DNA of 64,000 bases from Funneliformis mosseae (taxonomy: Eukaryota > Glomeromycota > Glomeromycetes > Glomerales > Glomeraceae), in contig CAJVPP010000005.1 of NCBI GenBank assembly GCA_910592005.1, forward strand, positions 16,838 to 80,837, given 5' to 3'. The translations under genes and the position numbers were made by a program. Positions 31,133 to 51,264 of this stretch are shown in pieces; the first letter of the stretch is position 1, and every line of letters begins with the position of its first letter. Below the pieces are notes generated by a model, which was given only the letters and a program-made list of their open reading frames with translations, made no database searches and was not told the origin of the DNA.

Positions 31133-32635
31133 ATTAGCACCTGAATATGAAATTGCTGCTACCGCTTTAAAAGTCGAAAATATCAAACTTGCAAAGGTTG
31201 ATTGTACAGCAGAGACCCAAGTCTGCTCCGAACAAGATATTAAAGGTTATCCTACCCTTAAAGTTTTCAAGGATGGTAATGCATCAGAATATAATGGTGG
31301 CAGAAAGGCCGATCTTATTGTCAATTACATGAAAAAGTATGAATCTTAAATTCCAATCCAATATTTATATGTATGTTATGTATTCATTTAAAATAATAAT
31401 AATTATTAATTAATCAACTTTAGACAAGCTTTGCCCGCGATATCCGACGTAAATGTTGAGAATTTTGACACTTTCAAAGATTCTGATGAAAAGGTTATTA
31501 TTGGCTTCTTTGATGACAATAATCAAGAGGAATACAACACTTTTTCACAAACCGCAGAAGAATTACGTGAAGATTTTCTTTTTGGTGCGACGGGTCAAAA
31601 AGATGTCATCACTAAGGCTGAAGTCAAACCACCCACTGTCATCCTTTACAAGAAATTTGATGAGGGTAAAAATATACTTGAGGGCTCATTTACCAAAGAG
31701 GAACTTACTACCTTTATCAAGAAAAATTCCATACCTTTATTGGCAGAAATTGGACCCGACAATTATGCCTCTTACGTTGATTCAGGTTTACCTCTTGCAT
31801 TCCTATTTTATGAAAACGCAGAGCAAAGAACCAAACTTGGTCAAGAAGTTGAATCCGTCGCAAAAGAATTCAAAGGTCAAGTTAGCTTTGTATACATTGA
31901 CGCGGAAAAGTTTGGTCAACACGCTGAAAACATCAATTTGAAACAAACATGGCCCGCATTTGGTATTTCAAAACCTGAGGAAAATTTGAAATTTCCATTT
32001 GATCAAAGCAAAGAAATCACTACAGAAGCCATTAGGGAATTCGTCACTCAATTCGTTAAGGGAGAAATAAAACCAAGCATTAAATCTCAACCGATTCCCG
32101 AGAAGAATGACGAACCCGTTTTTGTCTTGGTTGCTGACAACTTTGAAGACGTTGTGTACGATGCAACTAAGGATGTTTTGGTCGAATTTTATGCACCATG
32201 TAAGTAAACATCTTAGCATTAATATCACGTGTACTAAAAAAAAAATCTGAAGGAGGTTCAATTTATTATTTTTTAGGGTGTGGACATTGTAAGAAACTTG
32301 TTCCTACTTATGAAAAATTGGGAGAAACTTACGCAAATGTAAAGGATAAGATTCTCATCTCCAAGATGGATGCAACTGAAAATGACCTTCCTGCTAAAGC
32401 TACATTCAAAGTTAGCGGTTTCCCAACAATCAAACTTTTCAAAGCTGGTGATAACGAAATTGTAGATTATCAAGGAGATAGAAGTTATGAAAGTATCGTT
32501 GAATTCTTGAACAAGAATGCACTTAACAAAGTTGACCTTGATGTTTCTACCCCCGAGTCATCAACAACATCAGAATCGGCACCAACTACCACTGAAGTTG
32601 CGGAAGAAAAGCATGATGAGCACGATGAATTATAA
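30835..32635 (+). CDS. Protein disulfide isomerase, ER lumen
   Basis: Forms, breaks and shuffles disulfides in secretory proteins. Exons 30835-31018, 31138-31336, 31424-32199 and 32277-32635 sum to 1518 nt, 505 residues, the usual length of fungal PDI. A hydrophobic signal peptide (residues 1-~23, ending TIVSA) precedes domain a with APWCGHC (Cys55 and Cys58). Two redox-inactive thioredoxin folds follow (b and b', the latter with KFPF in FGISKPEENLKFPFDQ), then domain a' with a second WCGHCKKLVPTYEKLG, whose Trp codon is split by intron 3. An acidic, Ser/Thr-rich tail ends HDEL, the fungal ER retrieval signal. Both cis-prolines are visible (GYPTLKVF, GFPTIKLF). The start is the first ATG after the pyrimidine-rich leader and gives a good signal peptide. 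Confidence 0.96.
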
Positions 32636-33457: not shown

Positions 33458-35588
33458 ATGTATCTTATCACGCACGCGTGGGTTCGTATTGTAATGTAAT
33501 AATTAACCTAACTGAACATTCATTCAAATTTAAAAGTACCACGTTTTCAAAATTATTTGATTACAGCCGGAATATGAAGTCGTCAATGAAATTAATGATG
33601 ATGATTTGACAGATGAGGAGGTTTTAATCAACGACTCTTTGTTTGTTAAACCCAAAACCAAGAAACGTAAATCTGTGATAAAGCATTTCGTTCGTTGGAA
33701 ATTTCGATTTGAATGGATGACCAACCAAGAATTTGAACCTTGGTGGGAAACCCCCGTGGAGACGATGATGATGAACACATTGATGATTGATACTCCAAGT
33801 TACGATATATGTCTCGTGTGTGGAAATCCTTCCATTCAGTTTTACGACATTTGGATTTGCCTCAATCATTTATGCAAACTGTTTTGGAAGGTGTGAAAAC
33901 ACATTTTTACACTCATTGATTGGTATATATTTTAACAAGTTTTTTCGTTTTTTATAATTTTTTAAATTTGTAAAAACCATGTGTTCAGGTTTGGAATTCG
34001 AACCAAAGAAATTGGGAATTCGCTCCACAAAACCTTACTTACAAACCGACATTTTTAAACCCCGGGTTTGTTCCTAAAGAATTGTTGAAGAAACCGCTGC
34101 CATTTAGCATTGTTCCTCCTTTGATACCCACTGCTCAATTTGGATTTGACACTTACACTTCGCTACAATGGAAAGGTTATCACTGCCGAAGGTGTGGAAG
34201 GGTATCATGTCGCATTAAATGGAATGGTTGGGAGTGTTTTAACTGTCATGTAAGTATTAATGTTTGAAATGATTCCCTGAATGAATTAATTAATTATTAC
34301 ACGATTATTGTAATAGAAAATACAATCTGCGCCGAGATTGATTATTGACAAATCAATGTTGGTCGATCCTTACCGACCAGTCTTCACTGGCCCAGCCACA
34401 GATTGTGATGGATCTATCTTAGAGGGCAGTGATATTTTTCGAAAACGAACCGTTTTATCTGATGGTGAAATTTTAATGGAATACAAATTTCCAGAAGGTG
34501 GACATGTGTTTCATTATGTGTCGAATGAAAAAACCAATAAGTTGCCCGACATGTTTTTGAAAGAATTTCAGAAAATCGATTGTGCAAATTTGAAAAGACA
34601 TCCTGTTAAACAATTGTCGAATATGATGGGATCTTGTTTGTTCTCGAGGCAATTCACTCTTAACATCGGAGCGCATTATAAGCAAGCGCTCGATTTGGAT
34701 ACTGTACCTTGGTCAAGTGCCCCGAAAGTATGCAAGGACTCTTTTGTGTATATGCAGAACATTGTCAGGAATTTTATTGTTCCAAAAGCCAAATTCAACC
34801 AAATGCTCTCGGCTATATACATGGAAGGTCAAAAAATGTCATGGCATGATGATGGTGACAAAGGAGTTGGACCGGTCATAGCGACCCTTTCTCTAGGATC
34901 CTCCGCGGAAATGAAATTTCGTCGAAAAGTAAAAAAAGATAAACTCGTGAATGAAGTCGAACCAGCTGGAAAAAATGTTGAAATTGCGAGTCTAGAAACA
35001 ACAGAATGTGAAGTTGAGGCCTTTTCTACATGTTTAGACTCCAATAGGAAAAGGAAGTTAATGAATAACGAGGGCACTTTCCAAGAAAATCAGGATAATC
35101 CCAATGCAAATGGAATTAATGAGTCCAAAAAAGGAAGGAGGAAGAGGTTCTCTAAAAATGCGGTAGGTAGTAAAATCAAACCTCAAGTCGAACAAGAATT
35201 GGAAAGTGCTATGAATGTTCAATTACCTCCAATTAGAAATTTAACCACTCCTGAAGAGGATAAACTACCCGAATTTTCAAGTATTGTATCAAAATTAGAG
35301 GAATCCACGAATCGATCTTCATACCTGCCTATTGATATTTCTAAGGTATATATCAAAAGGAGAATTTCAGGTCCCGAGTTGTCATTAATTTTGCATCATG
35401 GAGACTTGATAGTAATGAATGGTCAAGTTTTACAAGATAATTATGATCAGTAAGTATTATTATATATTTTATAATTTAAATTGAAAATTCTAACAAAAAC
35501 AAATTAATTTTATTTTAGTATGGTTATTCCTAAGGGATTTCGCATTGTCTCAACTATTCGATACATTGAACAACAACAACAACAATAA
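33458..35588 (+). CDS. AlkB-like 2-oxoglutarate/Fe(II) dioxygenase with two Cys clusters
   Basis: Exons 33567-33890, 33989-34249, 34317-35449 and 35519-35588 are well supported. A short first exon (33458-33490, MYLITHAWVRI) is tentative; with it the frame is 1821 nt, 606 residues. Two Cys-rich, probably zinc-binding clusters come first: CLVCGNPS...WICLNHLC and CRRCGRVSC...WECFNC. The catalytic domain follows: SAIYMEGQKMSWHDDGDKGV carries the Fe ligands His383 and Asp385 (H-x-D), then GPVIATLSLGSSAEMKFRRK; GDLIVMNGQVLQDNYD leads to the distal His584 (DHMVIPKG), and RIVSTIRY holds the 2OG-binding Arg. About 200 residues separate the H-x-D from the distal His, including a basic, likely disordered insert (KKGRRKRF). 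The protein ends in Gln repeats. Fungal relatives are AlkB-type enzymes; the substrate here is unknown. Confidence 0.82.
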
Positions 35589-36198: not shown

Positions 36199-39100
36199 TT
36201 AAATGTTGTTTCCATCACCTCCATTTAAACTTTGTGTTTGATTATTTGTAACTGATGCGGTTGGTTGAGATTGATGAGGTTGATGATTATTGGTCGTGCT
36301 TGGATTTGTAACAGTTGTCGTCGTTATTGTTGTCATTGTTGCTGGTGTTGTTGTATTTGCAGTTTTACCACAACCGTTTTGTGCCATACAGCCACGTTGA
36401 TTTATGTATCTTAATAACGCATCTTTAATATCTTCTTTTCTCGCTGGCTTCGACACAAAATCATTCATACCACTTTCTATACAGCGAAACCGATCATACC
36501 ATAACGCATTTGCTAAAAATTATAAATGAAATTTGAAGTTGAAAAATCAATATATATTTATATTTATATTTATGATAAAAGACCCTCGTTCTTCATTTAC
36601 CTGTTAACGCGATAATCCACGGTCGTCTCATATCTTGAAATATATTTCGAATACTCTCGGTTGTCTGAAATCCATCCATGTCGGCCATCGAAATATCCAT
36701 AAATATAACATCATAATCTTTATTCTCACATTTGCTTATCGCGGCTTTTCCATCTCCCGCGATATCACACGACTGATTTAATTTTCCAAGTATACGCGAC
36801 GTAACCATCTGATAAATTTAGAAATATATATATATATATATGAATTCACTCCGATTCGAGTTTTAGATAAAGGTTAAAAGCACATCACTAACCTGATTTA
36901 TGACATTGTCTTCAACAATTAACACATCTAATTTAGGTATTTCCGCGTCAATAGTACCAAATTTACCATTTAAATCGATGTCAAGGTCTTCATAAGGTAA
37001 AAGGAGTGGCGATATGGCAGTTGTGGTGGTTGTATCATTATGTGAAGCTGTCGCTGCATTGGGTGAATTAGTAGTTAATGTTCGTGGTGAGGAGGTAAAT
37101 GACCGTTTTGGAGTATTTATGGGTGAAGATTTTTCACTTCCTGAAGATTTTGTAGTAAAAGTGGACGATAAATTTGAAACCGATGATGATGGTGAAGTAG
37201 TTAATATAAATTGTCGAAGATGCTCTCCAGGTCCAGAACTTTTTGACTGTCCATTTGACGATAAAGATCCTTTACTTTGTACTTGATCTTGATTCTCGTT
37301 GTCCTTGCTTAAATCTATTAAAGGTCTTTCCTCACTTTCAATTGAATTATCCCGAGAATTATAATTATCATAAAATTTATTATTACCATTTATCATCATT
37401 GAACCTTCCTTATTCATTTTTATAGACCCTGTCATTGTACCCATCACATTTGAATTTTCTTCGTTATTGCCTGATTCTCCCTCTAAAAATTTGAGCATAG
37501 ATTTAAATTTTACAGGGAGAGAAGAAAACAACAAATTATCTCCATCTAATTTGTATTTATTAGACCTTTGAAGCGATTTATTATTTACCAATATCATTAT
37601 TGGTATAGCTGACCATCTCTCATGTTTCAACATTTCTACTTCATTATTTTCAACTAATAACTGAAAATTTATTATTAAAGCATCCAAATCTTCATCTTCA
37701 GTTATTTGTTTCAAAGATGTGATAAACTTTGGTGATCTTTGCAGACCACATCGATCTAATAATTTTACGAGGCCTGTCTTATTACTTTCATGTTTTTCCA
37801 AGATAAATATAGATTTTTGACGGAAAAATGGAGACAAGGATGGATAAGATGGACTATTTGGATCGATATCAAGTTCAACACAAAATATCATTTTCGTTCC
37901 ACTATTTGCCGAAGTGTTTGGTTCAACTCGTATCTCTCCATTCATTAATTTAACTAATTTCCTTACAATCGCTAAGCCAAGACCTAATAAATTATGGAAA
38001 TTATTATTAAAAACTCATTCTTATTCTTATGATCATCATCATCATTATTATAAAAAAAGTGACATGCACCTGTTCCACCATATCTACGCGTAATACTTGC
38101 GTCAGCTTGCGAGAACTTCTCAAATAACTTTGGTAAAACTTCCTTTGATATGCCTAAATAATAAAAAGGAGGAAAAAAAAATTATATGAAGAATTCGAGA
38201 AATGCTATATAAATATATATATTTTAAATTTCATTTTACTTACCGATACCAGTATCGGTAACTTCACCTCTAATTTTAACCTTTTTAACATTTTGTCTTT
38301 CAATATATTCACTTTCAATTGAAAGGACAACATCTCCGTCTCTTTGAGTGAATTTACACGCATTCGACAATAAATTCACGATGATTTGTCGAAATCTAGT
38401 CATATCTCCTACAATGTTACAGGGCACTGTATTATCAATCATATAATTAATACGTGGTCTAGTGGATTCTTGTCCTTGAAGTGATACTATATCTAATGAA
38501 TTCTCAACAGCTTCTTGTACACAAAAAGGTACACGCTCCAAGTGTAATTGTTCCTCTTCATATTTAGAGAAATCCAAGACATTATTAATGATGGCTATTA
38601 GCATATCTCCACTCTTTTTGATGATTTCCAACATGTCCCGCATTTCAGTCATCTCTTGACTTGATAAATGTGGCATTTCCAATAACATTGAGGTTAACGC
38701 GAAAATCGCGTAAAGAGGCGTTCTCATTTCATGTGACATAACTAATTAAAAATGTTCAAAAAATTATCATACTTGTATTTATATAAAAGCACATTTTTTA
38801 CGTGTTAAAGATTAATAAGATTACCTGCTAAAAATTCACGATGAGCCTATTAAAAGCACAATGATCAATAACTGGTAAAATTTGAAATAAATAAAAACTC
38901 ATTAAAGCTTCATATACCTGAATTGCGGAAGCTTCTTTTTTAGCTTGAATTAATGCATCATTTTGCTCAGCAAGTTGGTAGATACGAATCTAAAGATATA
39001 ATAAGGTTTTTCTTTCTTTATTTTCTTTTCTTTCTATTAAAAAAAAAACTTTGCATATGAAGATCTTTTTTTATATTTATTTTTTATTGACTTTACCTTG

Positions 39101-40938
39101 TCTTGTTCGATTAAGGTGGCTTGAGCCAAAGCAATAGAAATTTGTTCAGCTAAATCTGCTAGGAAGATGAGGTTGTTTTGAGTATTTTGAGTCCATTCTT
39201 TATGCGACTTAAATTCAACCTGAGCCGTATTATTCCAACGTTGGATTACAATAATGCCAGATTCATTATCAGACATTTTAATTGGGACAAGTATAACCTT
39301 TTTTTGTTTTAAATAAAAAATATTTTAATTAATTAAATATTCAAAAATCCCGTCCGTCATAAAACATAAATACAATACCCTATCGATATTTTTATAAGTT
39401 CCATCCAAGTATAAGTCATATAATTCAGTATCATTTGGACCTAGTAATAAAGGTTTTCCTTCCTCCATAGCATAATTGATAGTACTACTTTCAGGATTCA
39501 ATTGAACATTGATATTTTTATGATATTTGTGTTCGCTTCTAATGTAATCCTGTACAATTCTCCAACCTCTGGTCTTTGAAATAAATATTTGACATCTATC
39601 AGAGTCAAAGATTCCGCATACTTCAGAAGCAGTATTATGATAAATAACTTCTTTAGATAAAGTAGCACGAATAGCATGGGTAACGCGTCTAAAATTTGAC
39701 ATTATTTGATTTTCATCGATTAAAGATTTCTGCACGAGTAATGTTTGATTTAATTCATCTTCGAATTGAGCTGCCAATAAAGGTAACTCTAACGCCTTCG
39801 GAATAATTACGGTTAATGCTGCAGCCGTACTGAGTGAGATGATGGCAGTGATTACTTTTATAACAGCGGAAAGTACATATGTTTGATGCCATGGCATCCA
39901 AGAAGAAACAATATGAGTTGTACCGCATAATATGATGAAAGCACTGAATAAACCAAAAACCGAAGGAAAGGGAAGTCTAGGAGCTATTTTATAAAGATAA
40001 AAAAGGGGATTATTAATATGTATAGAACGTCCAATAATAAAGATAGAACTCCAAAAGTCATGTGACTACCTACCTTTCCTCATGAAGTACATTAGTTGAA
40101 CTGGAATCGTATAGTATGCGAAAGCAATCGATAAATCAATTATGCATAAAAAAACTGCGAGACCTTCACCTATTCATATATAATGTAACAATAAAGTAAG
40201 AGAGGCGCGAATCGGAAAATATAAGATGAATAATGAAATGTCAGAAAAAAATTTTACTTAAATGCCAAGAATTTGGTGTAATGAAAACGACTTACTTAAT
40301 GGCATGAGACAACGGTCGCCTTCAATGGTTAGAAGTTCATTATTTTTAGGCCATCGATTTAAATTATCAAATTGAAACATTTCAAAATGATAGTCACGAC
40401 AATTTTTGTCCCGAGGCAATGATACTTTTAATTCACATTAATTCAATTTTTTTTTTTTTTTTTAATTATACAAAGTTATTAAAAAAAGGTTGTATTTATT
40501 TTATTAATTTTAATTAAATTAAATAATAGAAAAAAAAAAATATTATTATTATTGTTAAAATTGTTTATAAATAACCAAATAACCAAACTTACCAGTTCTA
40601 ATTAAACCAACACCTTCCGAATAATTTAAATGAGATGGCATTAAAAATCTTTCGCCACTTAAAATTAGATAAGAATCAGGAATTATAAAATTATCGTCAA
40701 CTTTACCAGAACCTTCAGTTCTGATAAAGAAAGTGATCAGATTTGGTTCGCTAAACCAATGACCACCTGTAAATTCTAACTCATTTAATGATTTTTTTGT
40801 AGCGTAAGTTAAACTTGTAGTATCATCGTTTTGTGAAGTTGGCATAGCAGAAACAGACATCGTCCCAGCAAACATGATATAACATAACAAAGGCATTAAA
40901 AGAAGACCATTAAAAAATAGCATTAAACATTGTGCCAT
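36199..40938 (-). CDS. Ethylene-receptor-like hybrid histidine kinase
   Basis: Membrane sensor kinase of about 1,200 residues in roughly a dozen exons (40938-40593, 40424-40296, 40169-40074, 39983 to ~39378, then on to 36199). Order: signal/TM segment ([20 protein letters not shown]); a ~130-residue non-cytosolic region; a three-helix ethylene-binding domain with Asp170, Tyr177, Ile180, Pro181, Cys210 and His214 ([27 protein letters not shown]); a GAF domain ([20 protein letters not shown] onward); a coiled linker; HisKA with [15 protein letters not shown]; HATPase with [15 protein letters not shown] and GGTGLGLAI; a second, receiver-like region; a long Ser/Thr/Asn linker; and a C-terminal receiver with [10 protein letters not shown], phospho-Asp in [13 protein letters not shown], and VSKP. 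The six residues have the spacing I know from plant ETR1 (D25, Y32, I35, P36, C65, H69). All kinase and receiver residues appear intact. Confidence 0.92.
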
Positions 40939-43900
40939 AGTTTTTTTTTGTTTTTTTTTAAATAAACTTAATTTTTATTCTTAATGCTTTTGTAATGTTT
41001 CTTATTTCCGCAATTATAATAAAAGGAGTTAAAAGAAAGAAAAAATTAGTAGGAAATGAAATAAGAGGGAAAAATAGGAAGGAAGAAAAAACCAGAAGTC
41101 GAGAAAATTTTATTGATTACGAACGTCAAGAAATGTTTATAAAACGTATTTTGTTTTGAGTACAGATAAATATATGTGCAACCTCAAGATCGGCAATATT
41201 TTTTTTTTTCAAAAAAAAATTAGATTCTCAAATGCAAACTACTTGGAAGCGGACATTAGCGTAACAGTTAGCGTAACAGATATGTTTGATTTAAACGTCT
41301 TATATTCCTTTTCTCTGATAATTGGTAGTTTTGTACATAAAAAAAATATAACCTGCATTCTCCATTCTCCAGTAACTGTATAAACAACAACTTGGTTGTT
41401 CATACTGTAATAAATTTTTTCCGGTTCGGAGTTCTGTGAAGTGTCAAAATATCGATTCAAATCCAACAAAAAAAAAAGTTATGAAAGAAATCAAAATTAG
41501 TTTCATTATAATACATTACTAATCTTTAAACTAATCTTTAAACTTGTTTGTTGAACAACTAGATACACAAAATGCAATCATGACGTTTGACTCTGTCATA
41601 TAAAAGCACGAGATATAAGCCTTATTTCCTTTCCTACTTGTTTTCTTTTTTCAAATAAAATTGCCAAGAAAAGACATTCATTTGGTTATGAAGAACGTTA
41701 CATTGGAAAACAAATAAACCTTTTTCCATAATTAAACATATAACGTGTACGTTTTTTTTTTTTTTAATATTTCTGTTTTACAAATATTAATTTTAAATTG
41801 ATTGGAAATGCCCGATTTTTTCAAATGAAAAAATTTTTTTGTCATAATGTAACTATTTGTTTGTTAAATGAAATTAATTAGACCAATCGAATTTCAGTGA
41901 AATGTAACCATATGAGGTATAATTAATTTTCTTGAATTGGTAGAAATAATGAAAAAAATTTTTTGGTTTTTTTGAATTTATTTTTAGTTTTAAAACGTTT
42001 AAAACGATGTACTAAATATTGGCATTACAAAATTTTATACATAGATATATATATCCTACAAACTGAATTTTATACTTTTTATTTATTAATCTATAATTAA
42101 AATGATATTTAAAAATTTATTTTTTAATATATTTTCAATAAAATATTTAGAAACATCTAAAGAATTTATTAAAAAAAATTTTATAATAATAGCATCAATT
42201 TAAAGTAACTTTCTATAATTTAATAATTATTAATAGCTACTTGATATAACTGTCGTAAAAACCCATAGATATATTAAATAAATTGAATAAATATCTATAA
42301 ATATATAATATCTATTGTAAAATAACTAAAGATGTGTTCGCATTGATAATCAAAATAAATCCATTATTTGAAAAAGTATTCTAAATGAGTTTATTATTCA
42401 CGTCTCAAGTAAGTAAAGCACACACATTTTGATTACCAATTCCTAGGATTAATTGAAATATTTTTATTAAAGATAATACTATAACTAGTTGTAACAGATC
42501 TTATAAAAAATTTTGCATATATTTTTATAATTTTAAATAAGTTTTGTATGCATCTTTTGAAATTCTGTATTAAATTTTCTTATATTTTATAAAAAATTAT
42601 TTTTTAGCATTTTTTTTTGTAAAAAATAATATATAAGAAATTATTATAAAAATAATAAAAAAATATATTTTATTACATTAAAAATTTTAAGGTTTTTTAC
42701 AACAAATTAGTATTTTTGAAATTGATTTATTTTATTCATTGAAAAGTTTATATTAAAAACAGAAAAATTAATAATAAATTTGTTATAATTTATAAAATTG
42801 GTACTTGTTTACTATTATTATTATAAATAGTATTCAGACTGTACATTGAAGATATCAGTATTTAAATAGCCTAAAAAAATTTTTGTCTCTAATCAATATT
42901 TTATATAAACTAGATCTTGTTACTCAAAATAGATATATAAGCTTAAAGTGATTAAAGTTCTATTTTTCAAAACATAAAAAAATAAATTAAAAAATACTTA
43001 AAAAAAATTTAAAAATAAAAAAAAATAAAATAAAATATAAAAAGAATAAAAAAATAGAATAATTAGTAATATAAATTTATCATAATATATTATTAAAAAT
43101 AAATATTTTAAAGAATTATAAATCTGTTTTTTAAATTTAACTAAAAATATAATCTAAGTATTCTATCTATTACATAATCTATTTCATAATTCTTGTAATA
43201 TTCTTTATAAGTAATAACTTTAGCCTTTTGATGTTTAGAGTTTCTTATAATAAAATAATATTTATTAGCTAAAATAAAATTAATATTATATTTATAAATT
43301 CAAATAAATAATCTTTAGTAATATTAATATATATTAAATTTATTATCTTTACTTTTTTTATAAACTTACTAAAACTAAACCATCTCCTTAAAAGCATAAT
43401 TTTAGTTTAAGCAATTTAAATATTTTAATTATTTAAAAAAGTTTTTATAACTCTTTTATATAATTATATAAGCAATTATTTATATTTTTACCTTACTTAA
43501 AATTACATTTACTTATTACAAATTATTAGTTTATTAATATATACCTAAAATTAATTATAAATTTTAGGATTAGCATTATTTAGTAATTAGAAATTCTTAT
43601 AAATATTAAATAATAAATATAAGTTTATTAAGTCTAATAATCTGAATAATCGTCTAGATATTAATTTATTATAAAGAAAAAAATGTGAAATTCTTTATTA
43701 AGATATCAAAGTTAAAATCTTATAACTTTTTAATCATATTATTAGTATACTCTAATGATGCTGAATGAAATTGAAATATTTAGTTATTTATATATATAAA
43801 ATCGAAATTAAAATCTAAAAGTTAAAATATTTTGACTTGAAAATTATGATTAAAATTAAAAGTCAAAATCAATTATGATGATCAAAATTAATTATAATAG

Positions 43901-43986
43901 TTAAAATCAATTATAATAATTAAAATGTATTATGATAATTAAAAATTAAAAAATACTTTTAAAATATTAATAAGATTAAAATTAAA

Positions 43987-44000
<14 letters not shown>
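40939..44000. other. Kinase promoter side grading into AT desert
   Basis: 40.94-41.75 kb has ordinary gene-island composition and should contain the kinase promoter and 5' UTR. An open minus-strand stretch at 41,469-41,349 (MLDLNRYFDTSQNSEPEKIY...VYTVTGEWRMQ followed by a GT) could be an exon of an unrecognised small gene or a UTR exon; support is weak. From 41.75 kb on the sequence is AT-rich with no recognised motif, ending in a short tandem array near 43,850-43,960. Confidence 0.4.
43830..43990. repeat. Degenerate ~18-bp tandem repeat, copy 1
   Basis: Repeats of the word AAAATnnATTATnATnnTTA run through this stretch, preceded by AAAATCTAAAAGTTAAA and closed by TTAAAAAATACTTTTAAAA. The same leader, repeat and closing words occur in the same orientation at 47.85-48.03 kb. 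Confidence 0.55.
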
Positions 44001-44029
<29 letters not shown>

Positions 44030-45850
44030 TTAAAATATTTATTTATTTATACATTAATATTAAAATTATTATAACTATAATCAAAATCTACTATTTTTTC
44101 AATAACTACTCTTATATTTACTTTTAATACTCTTTGAAATTCTTGATTATCAAAATCAAAATAATTTTTATAATTATTTCATTATTTATTTCTGATATTT
44201 CTTTTTCATTTTCATCAAAATCATTTTTATCATTATCATCATCAATATTATTATTATTTAATTCTTTTTGTTATTTTTCAATTTTTTCATTAAAAAATTC
44301 TGTAATATTTAAATTTTGATTAATTAATTGAAAAAGTTGTTCTTCAATAAAATCTAAATTGACATAATTTATTTTTGTTTTTATATTTATTATATAATAA
44401 GTATATAATTTAGCCATTACTTCTATTAATTTAATATTCAACTATAATTTAATATAAAATTGATTAATTTAAAAAAAAAAAAATAAAAATAAAAATTACT
44501 TTGTTTAATGTTTTAAGTACATACATCTTAAAACTAAAAAGAGTTTCATAATCAATATTATATAGTATTATAAATAATTCTAATACTAATTTTTGAATAA
44601 AATTATTCTTTTATTCTATAATACACTATCAAGTTTTTATACTATATAATTCTGATATGTATAAAAGTTCATAAGATTTTATTTAACTTTTATAAGCTAT
44701 AAGTTAATTTATTAAATAATTAAATGAATTTTCTTTATCACCTATAGAAATCCAAAATTTAATAGTTAAATAGTAAACTTTCTTAAAATTTTCTTGTTTA
44801 AATTCTTTTCTTAAAATAATAATAATATTATTAATATATATATATATATATATTAAAAATTATTAAAATTTATTAAATATATCTTAATATAATAGATGTA
44901 AAAAATAATCTAATAAATAAATATCAAAATCAAATTGCTTCTAACGCTTATTAAATTTTTCTAACAAAATAATTAAAATAAAAAAATTGTTATAGTTGAA
45001 TAAAATTTAAAAGCTATTTCAAGTTTTATTAATTGAAGAAATAATCTATTAAAGTAGTACTTTTATTTATAAAATAATAATTACTTCTTTAATAAGTTTA
45101 AAGATTTTAATTAACATCTTAAAAAATATTTGGATTGTAATAAAACTTTAATTTTATTATTAAGAATTTCTGAATATTGATTAAGAACTATATTATAGAA
45201 ATAAATATTTTATTAATTAATATAATATATTTTTTACATATAATAAAAAAAATATATATAATTCTTTTTTTCTTACATTATAAAAGAAACTTTCATATTG
45301 TTTAATTAAAGCTAAGCAATCAAATATAATTTTTACCTTATTTTTTGTATAACCTTTAATCTATCATCTTTAATTAAAGTATTCTTTAATATCTCAGATA
45401 AATAAATATCAGCTCTATAAGATTTTCTAAAATATTATAATTTTTATACAATTTATAATTGTATTTTTTTGAATATTTATATCTTATAATATTAGTTGCA
45501 AAAAGATTAACATAATGAGTAATATAATAAATAAGAATAATATGATTATATTTTTCATTTACAATTTTTTTTTTACAAAAACTATTGTTATAATATTGTC
45601 AAAAATAATTGAGAAAATCTTATTAGATCTAACTTTTTCAATAATTTCTAAAATCTTTTCTGCAATAAAAATCTGCTATATGTGAATAAAGGAATAAATT
45701 TTGTAAAGAATAAATATATTCTTTACCAGATAATAAAATTAAAATAAAAGTATATATAGAAGAACTATAAGAACTACTCTAACTATCAATTCCTAAAATT
45801 TAATTTTAATATTTTAGAATTAAAAATAGTAAATTTAAAATAATAAGAAA
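44000..45850 (-). pseudogene. Decayed hAT-like transposase
   Basis: Minus-strand pieces in order from high to low coordinates: LILLSGKEYILYKIYSFIHI, AEKILEIIEKVRSNKIFSII, IVNEKYNHIILIYYITHYVN followed by LFATNIIR, then, after a frameshift, FRKSYRADIYLSEILKNTLI and KDDRLK, and farther on an FWISIGDKENSFNYLINKLT-like piece and an acidic tail. The KKIV...IAHHVN-L-ATDII and FRKSYRA patterns are those of fungal hAT/DUF659-type transposases. Multiple stops and shifts make it non-functional. Element ends were not found. Confidence 0.55.
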
Positions 45851-47844
45851 AAAATAAATCTAATATAATATTATTAGATTATCTAAAATAAAGCATGTAA
45901 TATGTGTTAATTCTTAATTAACCCAAGGGTTTACAAATATAACTCAATTTGATAGATTGTAAAATAGACATTTTTTATAAATATTATTTGTATAAATTTT
46001 GAATTTAATCATAATAATAATAAAGTTATTATATATAATTATTTTAAAAAATACAATTAATGTGTAAAATTATTAATTTTGAAAAAAGGCTGAAAAGTAG
46101 AAAATCTTAATAAAAGGAATTTAAATTGATTATTAAAAAATGATAATTATAAAATTAGTAAATATTAATATCTTGCAGTTTAACATAATAGTTAAAAGGA
46201 TAGTAAAATAGCTGCAAATTCTAGTAAAGAAGAAAATAGAATAACTATAAAGAAAGCAACAATAAAGAAAATTACTAGTGAACTATAATAAGTTGTAACT
46301 AAACAATATCTATTTTAATTGAAAAAAGTTTAATATTATTAAAAGAGTTATTAGTATAAAATTTTAAATTAGTTAAATTAATAAAAGAAAAGAAAATGTT
46401 AAGTAATTATATAAGATAAATAAATTTATCAAATAAATTCAAAAAATTAAAAAAGTAAAATATCTTTAGATTAAAAAAAAAAGCTAAATTAGTAACTGAG
46501 AAAAAATAAATTAAAGTTAATTTATACAAAGTATCTAAAGACAAGATATTATGTTTAATATTTTAATATTAATTCTTGAATTTGATGGGAATAGCAATAT
46601 AAAATTCTAAAGGAAGTATATATAGAAATACTTTATATATTTGTTATATAATTTGTGAGTAAAGTTTTAATAGAGTAGGTATCTGCTATACAAATCTAAA
46701 ACTATATAATTGTAAGAGTCAATTAATAAAAGATAATGCATTAAATAAATATTATCTTTATTTATATCAGTAATTCTTTCAATTATAAATAAGTTATCAT
46801 TAAAATTTCATCTAATAATGAAATTTTTTAAACCTGAAGAAGACCATCAAATTAAATAACTATAATAAAAGTTGTATTTGTATAAATATAAATATTATAA
46901 AAAATAATCTACATTTGAATTTAATTGTTATTTCACTAAAAGAAACTATTTTAGAATTCTATAGAATCTTTAACAAGTTAGATAATAGTACAAAATTACT
47001 ATATTTAAATATATAATTTTTATAATAACTAATTAACTGTTTAACATAAAAGACAAAACATTTTTTCAGATTATTAATGTGAATCTTATAAATAGTTAAA
47101 ATCAAGTCTAAAATGAAGTAATTTTATTAGTAATATGATCCTAAAAAAATATTTAGAATAATTGACTAATATTAAATAATTTTAAAATATATAGGAATAA
47201 CATAAGCCAGTCATTTTTAACTAAAAGTATAAAATAAGGCTAATAGACTAATGAGTTTTATATAGTCATTCTTTTTATTGCAGTTATTTAATTCAAAAAT
47301 AAAATGATATTCTAAGGATATTTATTTTATTAATTATCTAAAAAGGTGTATTTTTAAAGGTTTGTATACGTCAATAGTACAAAAGAGTTAGATTATAAAA
47401 ATAATAAGAATAAAATAGATTTTTAAATATTTTTTTGAAAATTTTAGTTTCTTTTTATAATATTAAATATATAGTGATAAATCTATTACATTAAGATTAT
47501 AATAATAGAATTAGTTATAAATGATATTTAATTTGTAAAAAAATAATAATATTATATATATAGATAAATTAAGAGTCTATTAGCCTCTTATTTTCATGAT
47601 AATAATAGCATTTTTAAGTTCGTTATATATTTAGTTATTTATAAAAGTTTTATTAAAATAAAATAAGAATCAAATACCCAAGTAGCAGATATTATCTTTA
47701 AAATAATAGAAGTGATATTCTAATTAATCTTATTTTATTAAATAATAAAAGAAGTTGATTACAATTTATTAATCATTAGTTCTGATTTTAACCAATTAAC
47801 CTATATATCATTAAAGTCATAAAATTATTAGTAATAGTTATAAT

Positions 47845-48030
47845 TAATATAAAATTAAAATTAAAATCTAAAAGTTAAATATTTTAACATAAAGGTTATA
47901 AAGTTAAAATATATTATAATAGTCAAAATGTATTATAATGATCAAAATGTATTACAATAATTAAAATACATTATAATAGTTAAAATGTATTATAATAGTT
48001 AAAATTAAAAAATACTTTTAAAAATCAAAG
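47845..48030. repeat. Degenerate ~18-bp tandem repeat, copy 2
   Basis: Six or so units of the form AAAATGTATTATAATAGTTA, preceded by AAAATCTAAAAGTTAAA and closed by TTAAAAAATACTTTTAAAA, as in the copy at 43.83-43.99 kb. Confidence 0.6.
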
Positions 48031-48139
48031 AAAAATATTTATAATATATATATACTATATTTATTACTATTATTTTATTATTTTATTATAATTAATATTA
48101 TTAATTATAATATTTACTTAAAGGTCTACTTTTAAATTA

Positions 48140-48720
48140 AAAAATTAAAATAAAAAAAAAGAAAAAAATCAAATTGATTAAAATAAAAATAAAAAACAAA
48201 AAAATTAAAAAAAATTAAAAAAAATAGAGAAAGAAAAAATAAAAAATTAAAAATATCAGAGGAGGAAAAAATAAAATAATTAAATAAATAATTAAAAGAA
48301 AAATAATATAAAAATAAAAATAGGAGGAAAAAAATAAAAAAATTAAAAATTAATAAAAAGATCAAAAAGATTAAAGAAGATAAAAAATTAACAAAAATTA
48401 ATAAAAGAATAGAGTAAAGAAAGGAAAAACAAATAATAAAATTAAAAAATAACAAAAAAAAATAAAAAAAATTAAAAAATTAATAAAAAGATCAAAAAGT
48501 TAGGGAAAAAAATAAAAATAAAAAAATAAAAAAAATTAAATAAATTAAAAAAAGAATAGAGAAGAAAAAAAATAAAAAAATAAAATAATTAATTAAAAAA
48601 AATAATGATTAAAAAAGAAAAAAATGATAAAATAAAAAATAAAAAAATAAAAAGAATTAAATTAATTAAAAAAGAATCAATTAATTAAAATAAAAATAAA
48701 ATAAAATAAATAACAAAATG
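48140..48720. repeat. Purine-rich low-complexity block
   Basis: Nearly 600 bp in which the plus strand is almost only A and G with scattered T (AAAATTAAAAAAAT, GGAGGAAAAAAT and similar), giving a long open but meaningless Phe/Leu-rich frame on the minus strand. Confidence 0.65.
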
Positions 48721-51264
48721 ATGTCTTACCATTCAATTTGAACAATTTTTATTATTTTATTTAAATATATTTTATTATTTATTTTAAATTAATTTTTAAA
48801 ATTAATGTACAGAACTTGCAGAATACATCTGATTTTTTTTATTTATAAAATCAAATATACACATACAAATTTTACAAATGATTTTTAAAATATTCACAAA
48901 TTTATATATATAAATCTAGTTTGAAGTAAGTTCTACAGTTAGATATTATTTTACATGCAGATTTATTTGTATAACTAATCAATACAATTTAAATTTTTAC
49001 TTTATTTTATTATTTTTTTTTATCTTACAATATTTCAATTAAAAACTTTTAATAAATAAGTATTTTATTTTAATAAGTAATTCATCTACTATATTATCTA
49101 TTAGTATACAGAAATAAAAAAAAATTTAAATAACAAAATTTTTACTAAAAAAGTATACAAAAAAGATATTACATAAAATAAATTATATATATAGTTAAAA
49201 TAGAATTCAAAATAAATAAAGAATGAGTTACAGGTAGTTTTTAATTAAATAATATAGTATCTATAATACTAATTAAGGTTTGAGAAACCTGAGTTTAATT
49301 CTTAGGGTGATTTTTATAATTTAAGTATAACAATTGTGTTGAGTGGCTATTCTAAATTAGGTTGTTAAAGACTTTTCTTTTTAGTGATTGGCCTGAACTC
49401 TATTATACTATAATAGCATTAAGGATTAACTATACAATATTTACTTTATTTAGCTTATCATGATGGCTAGTGATTCAGCAATTCAGACTAGCTTTAAAAA
49501 TAACCAAAAGCGACTTGATTTTAAGTACAATAGCATATAGGATATACAAGTTTCTGTCAAAACACTTAGGGTATTCAATCACTAAATATTAAAAAATAAA
49601 TAAATAAAAAAAAATTTATAGGTTGTTTAACATATTGATTTTAATATTAAATTGAAAATATTTTATATAGTATACAGATTATAATAAAAATTCTAAAGGT
49701 GTATTTATAATCAGAATAAAAATATTCAAAAAAAATTATATATATTTATCTACTAAAGAATATTAAAAGTAGTATATAGATATACTGCTTAACTATCAAA
49801 TCAAATAAATTTTATAGTTAGATTTATAATTTAAATAAATATTAACAACTAGATATTATAGCAAAAATGTAATATATTTATCTTTATATCAAGAAGTATC
49901 TTATAGTTGATTCATTTTCTAATTTAGTTAATTAATAAATATTCAAGAAAAAAATAAAACTCAATTAATATATGATTAATTTCTACTTATACTTTTATCA
50001 CTATCATTTAGTTTAAAAAAAATTTAATTAAAAATGATAATTCAAAAAGTCAAATAATAAATTATGTTACATATAAAAATCTAATAGCAGGTATTAAATT
50101 CTTCTATGTTATAATTACAGTAATAAATAAATTAGTTTTAAATAAAGTTTATAAATTTTCACCTTAAAGTTTATTGATTGATGAAAATAATACAATTACA
50201 TATAATAAAATATATATAATTATTAGTAAATATATAGTAAGAAATATTCCTGTACTTTATTATTTAAGATTTATTAAATTATTAAAAATCCTTATGTTGA
50301 ATTAAATAAATAAATTGTGAATTATTAAATAATTTATTATATTAATGCATAATACAAAAAATTTTAATATATGAAATTTTTGATTAGATAGTCAAGTTGT
50401 AAAATAATAAATCATCAAATAAACATTTTTGATTAAAAATTCTTTTTGTTCTTGAAAATACAGATGAATTATCTAAAATCAATTTCAGATATGAAAAATA
50501 TATAAACCAATTTTTTTATTTTGTGCAGTCAGTCTAACTAAAAATTTGAATATATAATTTATAATCAAATTATAGATTATATTTTTGATTAAAAAATGAA
50601 ATAAGTTATATTAATATTTGATTTATAAATTTATATATAAATAAAATTATGAATTAAACATTAAATTATTTATAATTTAATTTGTTATTTATATATAATT
50701 TCTTTAAATAATCCAAATTTAATTATAATTCTCAATTAATCTTAATATACAAGATTTATAAAACTTTATTTCTAATAGTTATATTATTAAATATATACAA
50801 AGTTTTAGAAATTTTATCTTTTATAAGGAAAATACTTTTATCAAAAAAATCTAAATCGGTAAAATTAAAAGGAATAAAAGACTGAATAATTTTAAAAACC
50901 TATTAATTAATAAATAAATAGAGGCACCTTTTTACTAAAATCCAATATTTGATTTTGTGGCTAATTTTTTTGAGTCACGTAATATTCTTCCAGATAAAGA
51001 AATAATGAAAGGCCTTTTCACATGTTTTTTTATTTCCAATGAAATCAGATATTTGTTACCAAATTAGTGGTTTCATGTGATATAATTTGAGGTTGCGATC
51101 TTTGTATTTATTGTAATTTGCTTTTTTTTTTTAAACCACTTTTTTTTTACCAAATTATTTGCCCAAAACAATTATTTAAATAAATTTCACCTTGCGCTTC
51201 GACTTTAGATTACCGTACAAGCTTTGAATTCAATAACCGACCTTTTTGCATCCTTTTTTTGTAA

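Follow-up and report, generated by a model that had tools for sequence, protein, structure and literature searches.

An ETR-type hybrid histidine kinase gene in the mycorrhizal fungus Funneliformis mosseae as a candidate ethylene receptor

Could a mycorrhizal fungus perceive ethylene through a receptor of its own? The question is raised by a gene of Funneliformis mosseae that lies in a stretch of 64,000 nucleotides (contig CAJVPP010000005.1, positions 16,838 to 80,837), hereafter the window, for which an original prediction had proposed a hybrid histidine kinase with the copper/ethylene site of the plant receptor ETR1. The gene occupies 36199..40938 on the minus strand, as do all its features given below, and its 12 exons, read as a spliced translation, encode a protein of 1221 amino acids, from a start ATG at 40938 to a stop TAA at 36199. 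All 11 introns are of the GT-AG type and measure 71-168 bases, there is no internal stop, and the gene is intact. The model fits the annotated orthologues from Funneliformis, Rhizophagus, Entrophospora and Ambispora, save for gaps in some of their models. In particular, the Funneliformis caledonium protein aligns with the window protein at 98% identity, which bears out the placing of the gene in the genome of a plant symbiont, and its annotation differs from our splicing by one extra intron in the linker and by the absence of the last exon, being otherwise the same. The records of F. caledonium (P0001) and F. geosporum (P0002) both end at IIALTGK, the site of the window gene's last intron, so that the end of the receiver has been lost from the public Funneliformis models; the last exon is supported by the receiver ending that Rhizophagus irregularis, R. 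clarus, Entrophospora and Ambispora share. By eye, exon 1 at its end and exon 2 carry LMP motifs that look alike.

The part of the protein that bears most directly on the question is a predicted three-helix ethylene-binding domain (residues ~162-257, exons 3 and 4, 39784..40161), which Pfam assigns to ETR1_N at residues 166-257 with an E-value of 1.5e-30; its score is 105.7 bits, the cut-off being 27. The helices span residues 160-190, 197-219 and 226-298 in the structure that AlphaFold2 predicts for the F. caledonium protein. An alignment with ETR1, in which a Noccaea receptor from the database (P0022) was set alongside, places D170, Y177, I180, P181, I207, C210, H214 and K233 in the same columns as ETR1 D25, Y32, I35, P36, I62, C65, H69 and K91; F203 and C154 likewise match ETR1 F58 and C6. 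The six site residues first pointed out at ETR1 spacing are all among these, at the numbers then given. The eight site residues are identical in 10/10 Glomeromycotina rows, among which R. irregularis is represented by two models and F. caledonium by its near-identical protein. The seven residues that ETR1 requires are, as we take them, D25, Y32, I35, P36, I62, C65 and H69. Judged from the sequence, none of the residues that the binding of Cu(I) and ethylene requires is missing from what is a predicted site. According to a 2025 paper, ethylene binding by ETR1 needs seven residues, and D25, H69 and K91 act jointly around the copper site (PMC11819568). A sequence search of the PDB with the N-terminal 483 residues gave weak matches only, the best being a GAF-containing kinase (E 0.0065). 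Assignment to the ETR type relies on the Pfam match together with the site residues, since the membrane-domain tree described below holds ETR1_N proteins only and has no non-ETR outgroup. The ETR1_N score and the 12 clean exons ruled out a motif matched by chance and a damaged gene, and the same exons, with the identity to the Funneliformis protein, ruled out bacterial contamination.

Downstream of the membrane helices, the domain order is that of a sensor kinase. A GAF domain (residues ~285-455, 39109..39702) is detected by Pfam at 302-449, barely above the cut-off of 22.4 (25.0 bits, E 3.1e-5). It is followed by the HisKA/DHp domain (residues 485-553, 38554..38843; E 4.7e-16) with the predicted phospho-accepting His494, which is conserved in 10/10 rows, and by HATPase_c (residues 602-722, 37871..38409; E 2.6e-26). 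The kinase boxes H494, N617, DTGIG and GGTGLGL are all there, and a fold search matched the F. caledonium model, over its kinase core, to the catalytic domain of ETR1. The C-terminus carries a canonical receiver (residues 1038-1150, 36415..36925; Pfam Response_reg, E 6.1e-23) in which E1042-D1043, D1086, T1117 and K1139 are all present. Asp1086 is found in 9/10 rows, the tenth model (P0007) being devoid of the stretch, and K1139 in 8/10, the remaining two models ending earlier. By its domains and catalytic residues, the window protein thus reads as a hybrid histidine kinase. The earlier description of undamaged GAF, HisKA, HATPase and receiver domains stands for the kinase boxes and for the C-terminal receiver; it does not extend to a second receiver-like stretch at residues ~736-852, which is degenerate, so that an undamaged receiver is true of the C-terminal one only.

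This degenerate stretch (37481..37831) is a predicted pseudo-receiver that follows the ATPase domain and precedes the true receiver. Once its residues are placed by a profile alignment with cyanobacterial receivers, the acid pair reads Glu-Lys in 10/10 rows, the receiver Lys is missing in 9/9, and the Asp position holds Asn in 4/9 and Asp in 5/9. In that comparison, made with the nine of fifteen cyanobacterial receivers tried that have the start motif, 109 columns were in register at an E-value of 0.1, which is not significant; the true receiver scored 5e-14 and the outer domain, used as a negative control, 0.12. Between the two receivers runs a low-complexity linker (residues 853-1033, 36938..37480), which is poorly conserved in the alignment and has a predicted local distance difference test score (pLDDT) below 50 over residues 855-1000 in the F. 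caledonium model. From its predicted fold and position, the pseudo-receiver would probably tune or lock the kinase, as in ShkA of Caulobacter (6qrj), a protein that, unlike the window protein, has no ethylene domain. The pseudo-receiver of ShkA binds cyclic di-GMP (PMC7010744); this binding is a feature of ShkA, to which the window protein is likened by position and predicted fold alone.

Further features lie at the other end of the protein. Residues 1-31 (40846..40938) form a putative signal peptide, likely cut after SVSA, with a hydrophobic stretch (scan windows centred on residues 10-23) followed by a small-residue motif that by eye resembles a cut site, SVSA/MP in the window protein and VSA/IP in Rhizophagus. 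The stretch looks like a signal peptide because of this motif at its end and because the outer domain lies between it and helix 1; an extra N-terminal membrane helix is the mark of plant subfamily 2 receptors. The domain that follows (residues ~55-157, 40300..40776), predicted to lie on the secreted side, lumenal or extracellular, is probably all-beta, with eight strands modelled by AlphaFold2 for the F. caledonium protein at low confidence (46-66 in 10-residue blocks). It has 31 invariant columns across 8 trimmed rows; Cys124 and Trp140 are present in 9/10 rows, the tenth model lacking the stretch, and Cys154 in 10/10. Two rows of the outer domain gave no Pfam match up to E 10, a PDB sequence search gave none up to E 5, and a second copy was not found in the same genome. 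Fold searches with the F. caledonium (P0001) model barely probed the outer fold, the top 50 listed rows being kinase-type chains. In the ten bacterial and four plant receptors fetched there is no space for such a domain ahead of helix 1. The R. irregularis model P0008, compared with P0003, is short of 28 outer-domain residues, including the conserved Cys and Trp, through either alternative splicing or prediction error.

Taken together, we favour, at roughly three chances in four, a copper-dependent ethylene receptor of the ETR type that acts as a hybrid histidine kinase and feeds a fungal phosphorelay. Given the signal peptide and the three helices, the beta domain would face the secreted side, and the part with GAF and kinase would be cytosolic. 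By analogy with ETR1, Cys210 and His214 would hold Cu(I), with Asp170 and Lys233 around it, and ethylene would bind there. Binding may move the helix bundle together with the coiled coil linked to the GAF domain, and alter the autophosphorylation of His494, from which phosphate would pass to Asp1086 of the C-terminal receiver and then, via a histidine phosphotransfer (HPt) protein, to response regulators of the fungus. The intact gene, the identity of the residues, the order of the domains and their conservation are direct observations; the ligand and the signalling are inferred.

Several points weigh against this receptor model. Among nine aligned bacterial relatives (P0014 left out), the place of D25 holds Asn in 4/9 and the Lys at the place of K91 is missing in 4/9, and because of this variation an ETR1_N fold is not by itself a warrant of ethylene binding. 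The open-licence literature yielded no data on binding, copper or expression for the window protein or its Glomeromycotina orthologues. Gigaspora, Diversispora, Acaulospora and other Diversisporales showed no ETR protein among the matches listed, the content of the database being unchecked, and the 2017 text on Gigaspora rosea, in the part available, names a cytokinin-type homologue and no ethylene one (PMC5285503); on both grounds, the receptor may be dispensable for mycorrhiza. In addition, the outer domain could sense something else. A related proposal, that the membrane domain has copper or some other small unsaturated molecule as its ligand or is a structural relic, the true sensor being the secreted-side or the GAF domain, draws on the conservation of the outer domain in Glomeromycotina, on the lack of room for one in the bacterial and plant receptors fetched, and on a GAF score just above its cut-off. 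We regard it as improbable: the copper/ethylene site residues are kept in every row while the linker varies freely, which makes a relic an unlikely picture. Scarcely more probable is a two-input sensor, in which a gas site in the membrane and a secreted-side domain for a second cue other than a gas, met at the surface of the fungus or in the endoplasmic reticulum lumen, would share one kinase checked by the pseudo-receiver.

If an ETR-type, copper-dependent receptor is accepted, the source of the ethylene is a separate matter. Germinating spores of R. irregularis make ethylene, by the 2-keto-4-methylthiobutyric acid (KMBA) route according to the authors and mostly in the light (PMC7567356), and since this fungus makes ethylene itself, sequence cannot separate plant from fungal ethylene as the cue. 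The receptor may therefore bind ethylene and yet mainly read the fungus's own or background soil ethylene as a cue to crowding, germination or aeration, a view compatible with the proposed mechanism that competes with plant sensing only. Besides the spore ethylene, it is favoured by the many soil sources of the gas, which can pass 10 ppm (PMC11819568), and by homologues in fungi that are not root symbionts, e.g., Rozella and Allomyces; against it, the fungi that carry such homologues for the most part live on plants or plant debris or together with them (PMC5285503). We hold it to be a serious contender at somewhat under even odds. The effect of ethylene on the Lotus mycorrhiza has been explained through plant genes (PMC11868565).

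How does the window protein compare with known ethylene receptors? Arabidopsis ETR1 shares the three-helix site (D25, Y32, I35, P36, I62, C65, H69, K91), the GAF domain, the kinase and the receiver. Both an outer domain of such size and a pseudo-receiver are presumably absent from it. The cyanobacterial SynEtr1 and the proteobacterial AzoEtr1 have the ethylene-site residues in common with the window protein; unlike it, the ten bacterial ETR rows fetched have no outer domain. AzoEtr1 of Azospirillum, a bacterial protein with this site, binds ethylene and is described as having PAS and kinase domains, with no receiver named (PMC11819568). Among fungi, AbETR1 and AbETR2 of Agaricus bisporus are hybrid kinases reported to bind ethylene in yeast; they have two of three essential residues and AbETR1 is given five transmembrane regions (PMC9603746), which makes them a looser match to ETR1 than the window protein. 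The closest precedent is RiHHK6, the ethylene receptor homologue of R. irregularis described by Herivaux et al. in 2017 (PMC5285503), which comes from the same subphylum and has the ethylene-site residues and the hybrid kinase order. The R. irregularis protein P0003, 67% identical overall to the window protein, would be RiHHK6, as the paper names one such protein in that species. The same work reported homologues in chytrids, blastoclads, Rozella and Entomophthoromycotina, stated that crucial residues were present, left two sequences with incomplete domains out of its alignment, and proposed plant sensing by the fungal homologues (PMC5285503). Two reviews repeat the occurrence of ETR homologues in Glomeromycota or early-diverging fungi (PMC7700396; PMC6944256), so that the original prediction was right to call such homologues published. 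Since RiHHK6 and its fungal homologues are already in print, the window gene adds one more member to an established family; RiHHK6 is from another genus, and the accessible text of the 2017 paper makes no mention of an outer domain or a pseudo-receiver (PMC5285503).

Where the gene came from is harder to say. The membrane-domain tree used 30/79 distinct cyanobacterial rows drawn at random and four more distant bacterial ETR1_N proteins as outgroup, with P0014 and the chytrid and other fungal receptors left out. Glomeromycotina form one starred clade (97/93) on the cyanobacterial/plant side, away from the outgroup, and join plants at 87/85, unstarred, both branches being long; fungi with cyanobacterial-type rows were not rejected (p-AU, the approximately unbiased test, 0.40). 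The kinase tree groups fungi and plants at 65/0, with a p-AU of 0.047 for fungi with cyanobacterial hybrid kinases and 0.113 for all three together. The kinase-core trees, the first made with 47/121 cores and the second without six long rows, namely P0010, P0011, P0018 and the L117, L139 and L141 pieces, left the order of plant, fungal and cyanobacterial rows unsettled. A direct passage from a cyanobacterium to fungi, apart from the plant receptor line, would agree with the mean membrane-domain identity of the Glomeromycotina, which is 45.5% to cyanobacterial and 38.0% to plant rows; the comparison is biased, as the cyanobacterial rows are the top matches of large scans made with this query, being the best 80 of an ETR-motif scan, and the plant rows are not. 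It would also agree with the whole kinase core, which is nearest to cyanobacterial kinases picked from 291 genomes by a search with this protein (37-48% for the best 18 frames, of which two are one and the same place) and further from plant ETR1 (32-36%, six listed) and from two other kinases of the source genome (25-29%; cores were long enough in 2/6 other HisKA loci). Against this origin, before cyanobacterial kinases were added the GAF piece (22-23%, best E 7e-6) and the HisKA piece (49-51%) best matched plant receptors, and both trees join plant and fungal rows, the fungal-cyanobacterial kinase clade falling at the p-AU given above. We consider a direct cyanobacterial origin doubtful, and the long branches make all evidence on origin, either way, weak. 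A recent plant-to-fungus transfer is unlikely; it was discarded on the 38% identity to plant domains and the presence of the gene in several Glomeromycotina genera. A query running from the membrane domain to HisKA found no whole-query match among those listed for the 291 cyanobacterial genomes, and in the furthest-reaching of the frames inspected (L142, L143) the part read contains no ethylene domain. In the protein P0015, PAS domains are interspersed among an ethylene domain, GAF, kinase and two receivers. One cyanobacterial genome, Coleofasciculus sp. LEGE 07092 (L024 / G001), has six ETR1_N places above the Pfam cut-off.

Within Glomeromycotina, protein searches recovered relatives from F. 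caledonium, F. geosporum, R. irregularis (two models), R. clarus, Glomus cerebriforme (partial), Entrophospora candida (two proteins), Ambispora gerdemannii and A. leptoticha. The gap in the order of Gigaspora may reflect lineage loss or a database gap. The source genome (82 Mb, 4154 contigs) has one ETR gene by genome search, seven HisKA places with this gene counted, one HPt place and 12 REC places, the latter being exon pieces. It also has one place for CHASE, the cytokinin-receptor type (G000:C4128:7288-7785), which is the second phytohormone-receptor type of the 2017 paper (PMC5285503), and frames with several heavy-metal-binding domains, which could be copper pumps. In the window, which is AT-rich overall, a 2-oxoglutarate (2OG)-Fe(II) oxygenase frame at 34338-35453 (+) lies tail to tail with the receptor gene (Pfam 2OG-FeII_Oxy_2, E 8.2e-15); we take it to be of the AlkB type. 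A thioredoxin-like frame at 31431-32207 (+) (Thioredoxin_6, 4.2e-38) is probably part of a protein disulphide isomerase gene. GC content falls to 0.13-0.15 over 42001-50000, with degenerate A-rich tandem repeats near 48139-48719, and scans for tRNA genes and Rfam families found nothing in the window.

All in all, the receptor type has been in print since 2017, and the outer domain and the pseudo-receiver are the features added here; both are conserved, lack mention in the literature consulted and offer concrete new handles. The site residues are kept in Funneliformis, Rhizophagus, Glomus, Entrophospora and Ambispora, with no Diversisporales match listed, which provides a natural comparison. 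If ethylene binding proves true, a hormone controlling the symbiosis would have a direct receptor in mycorrhizal fungi.

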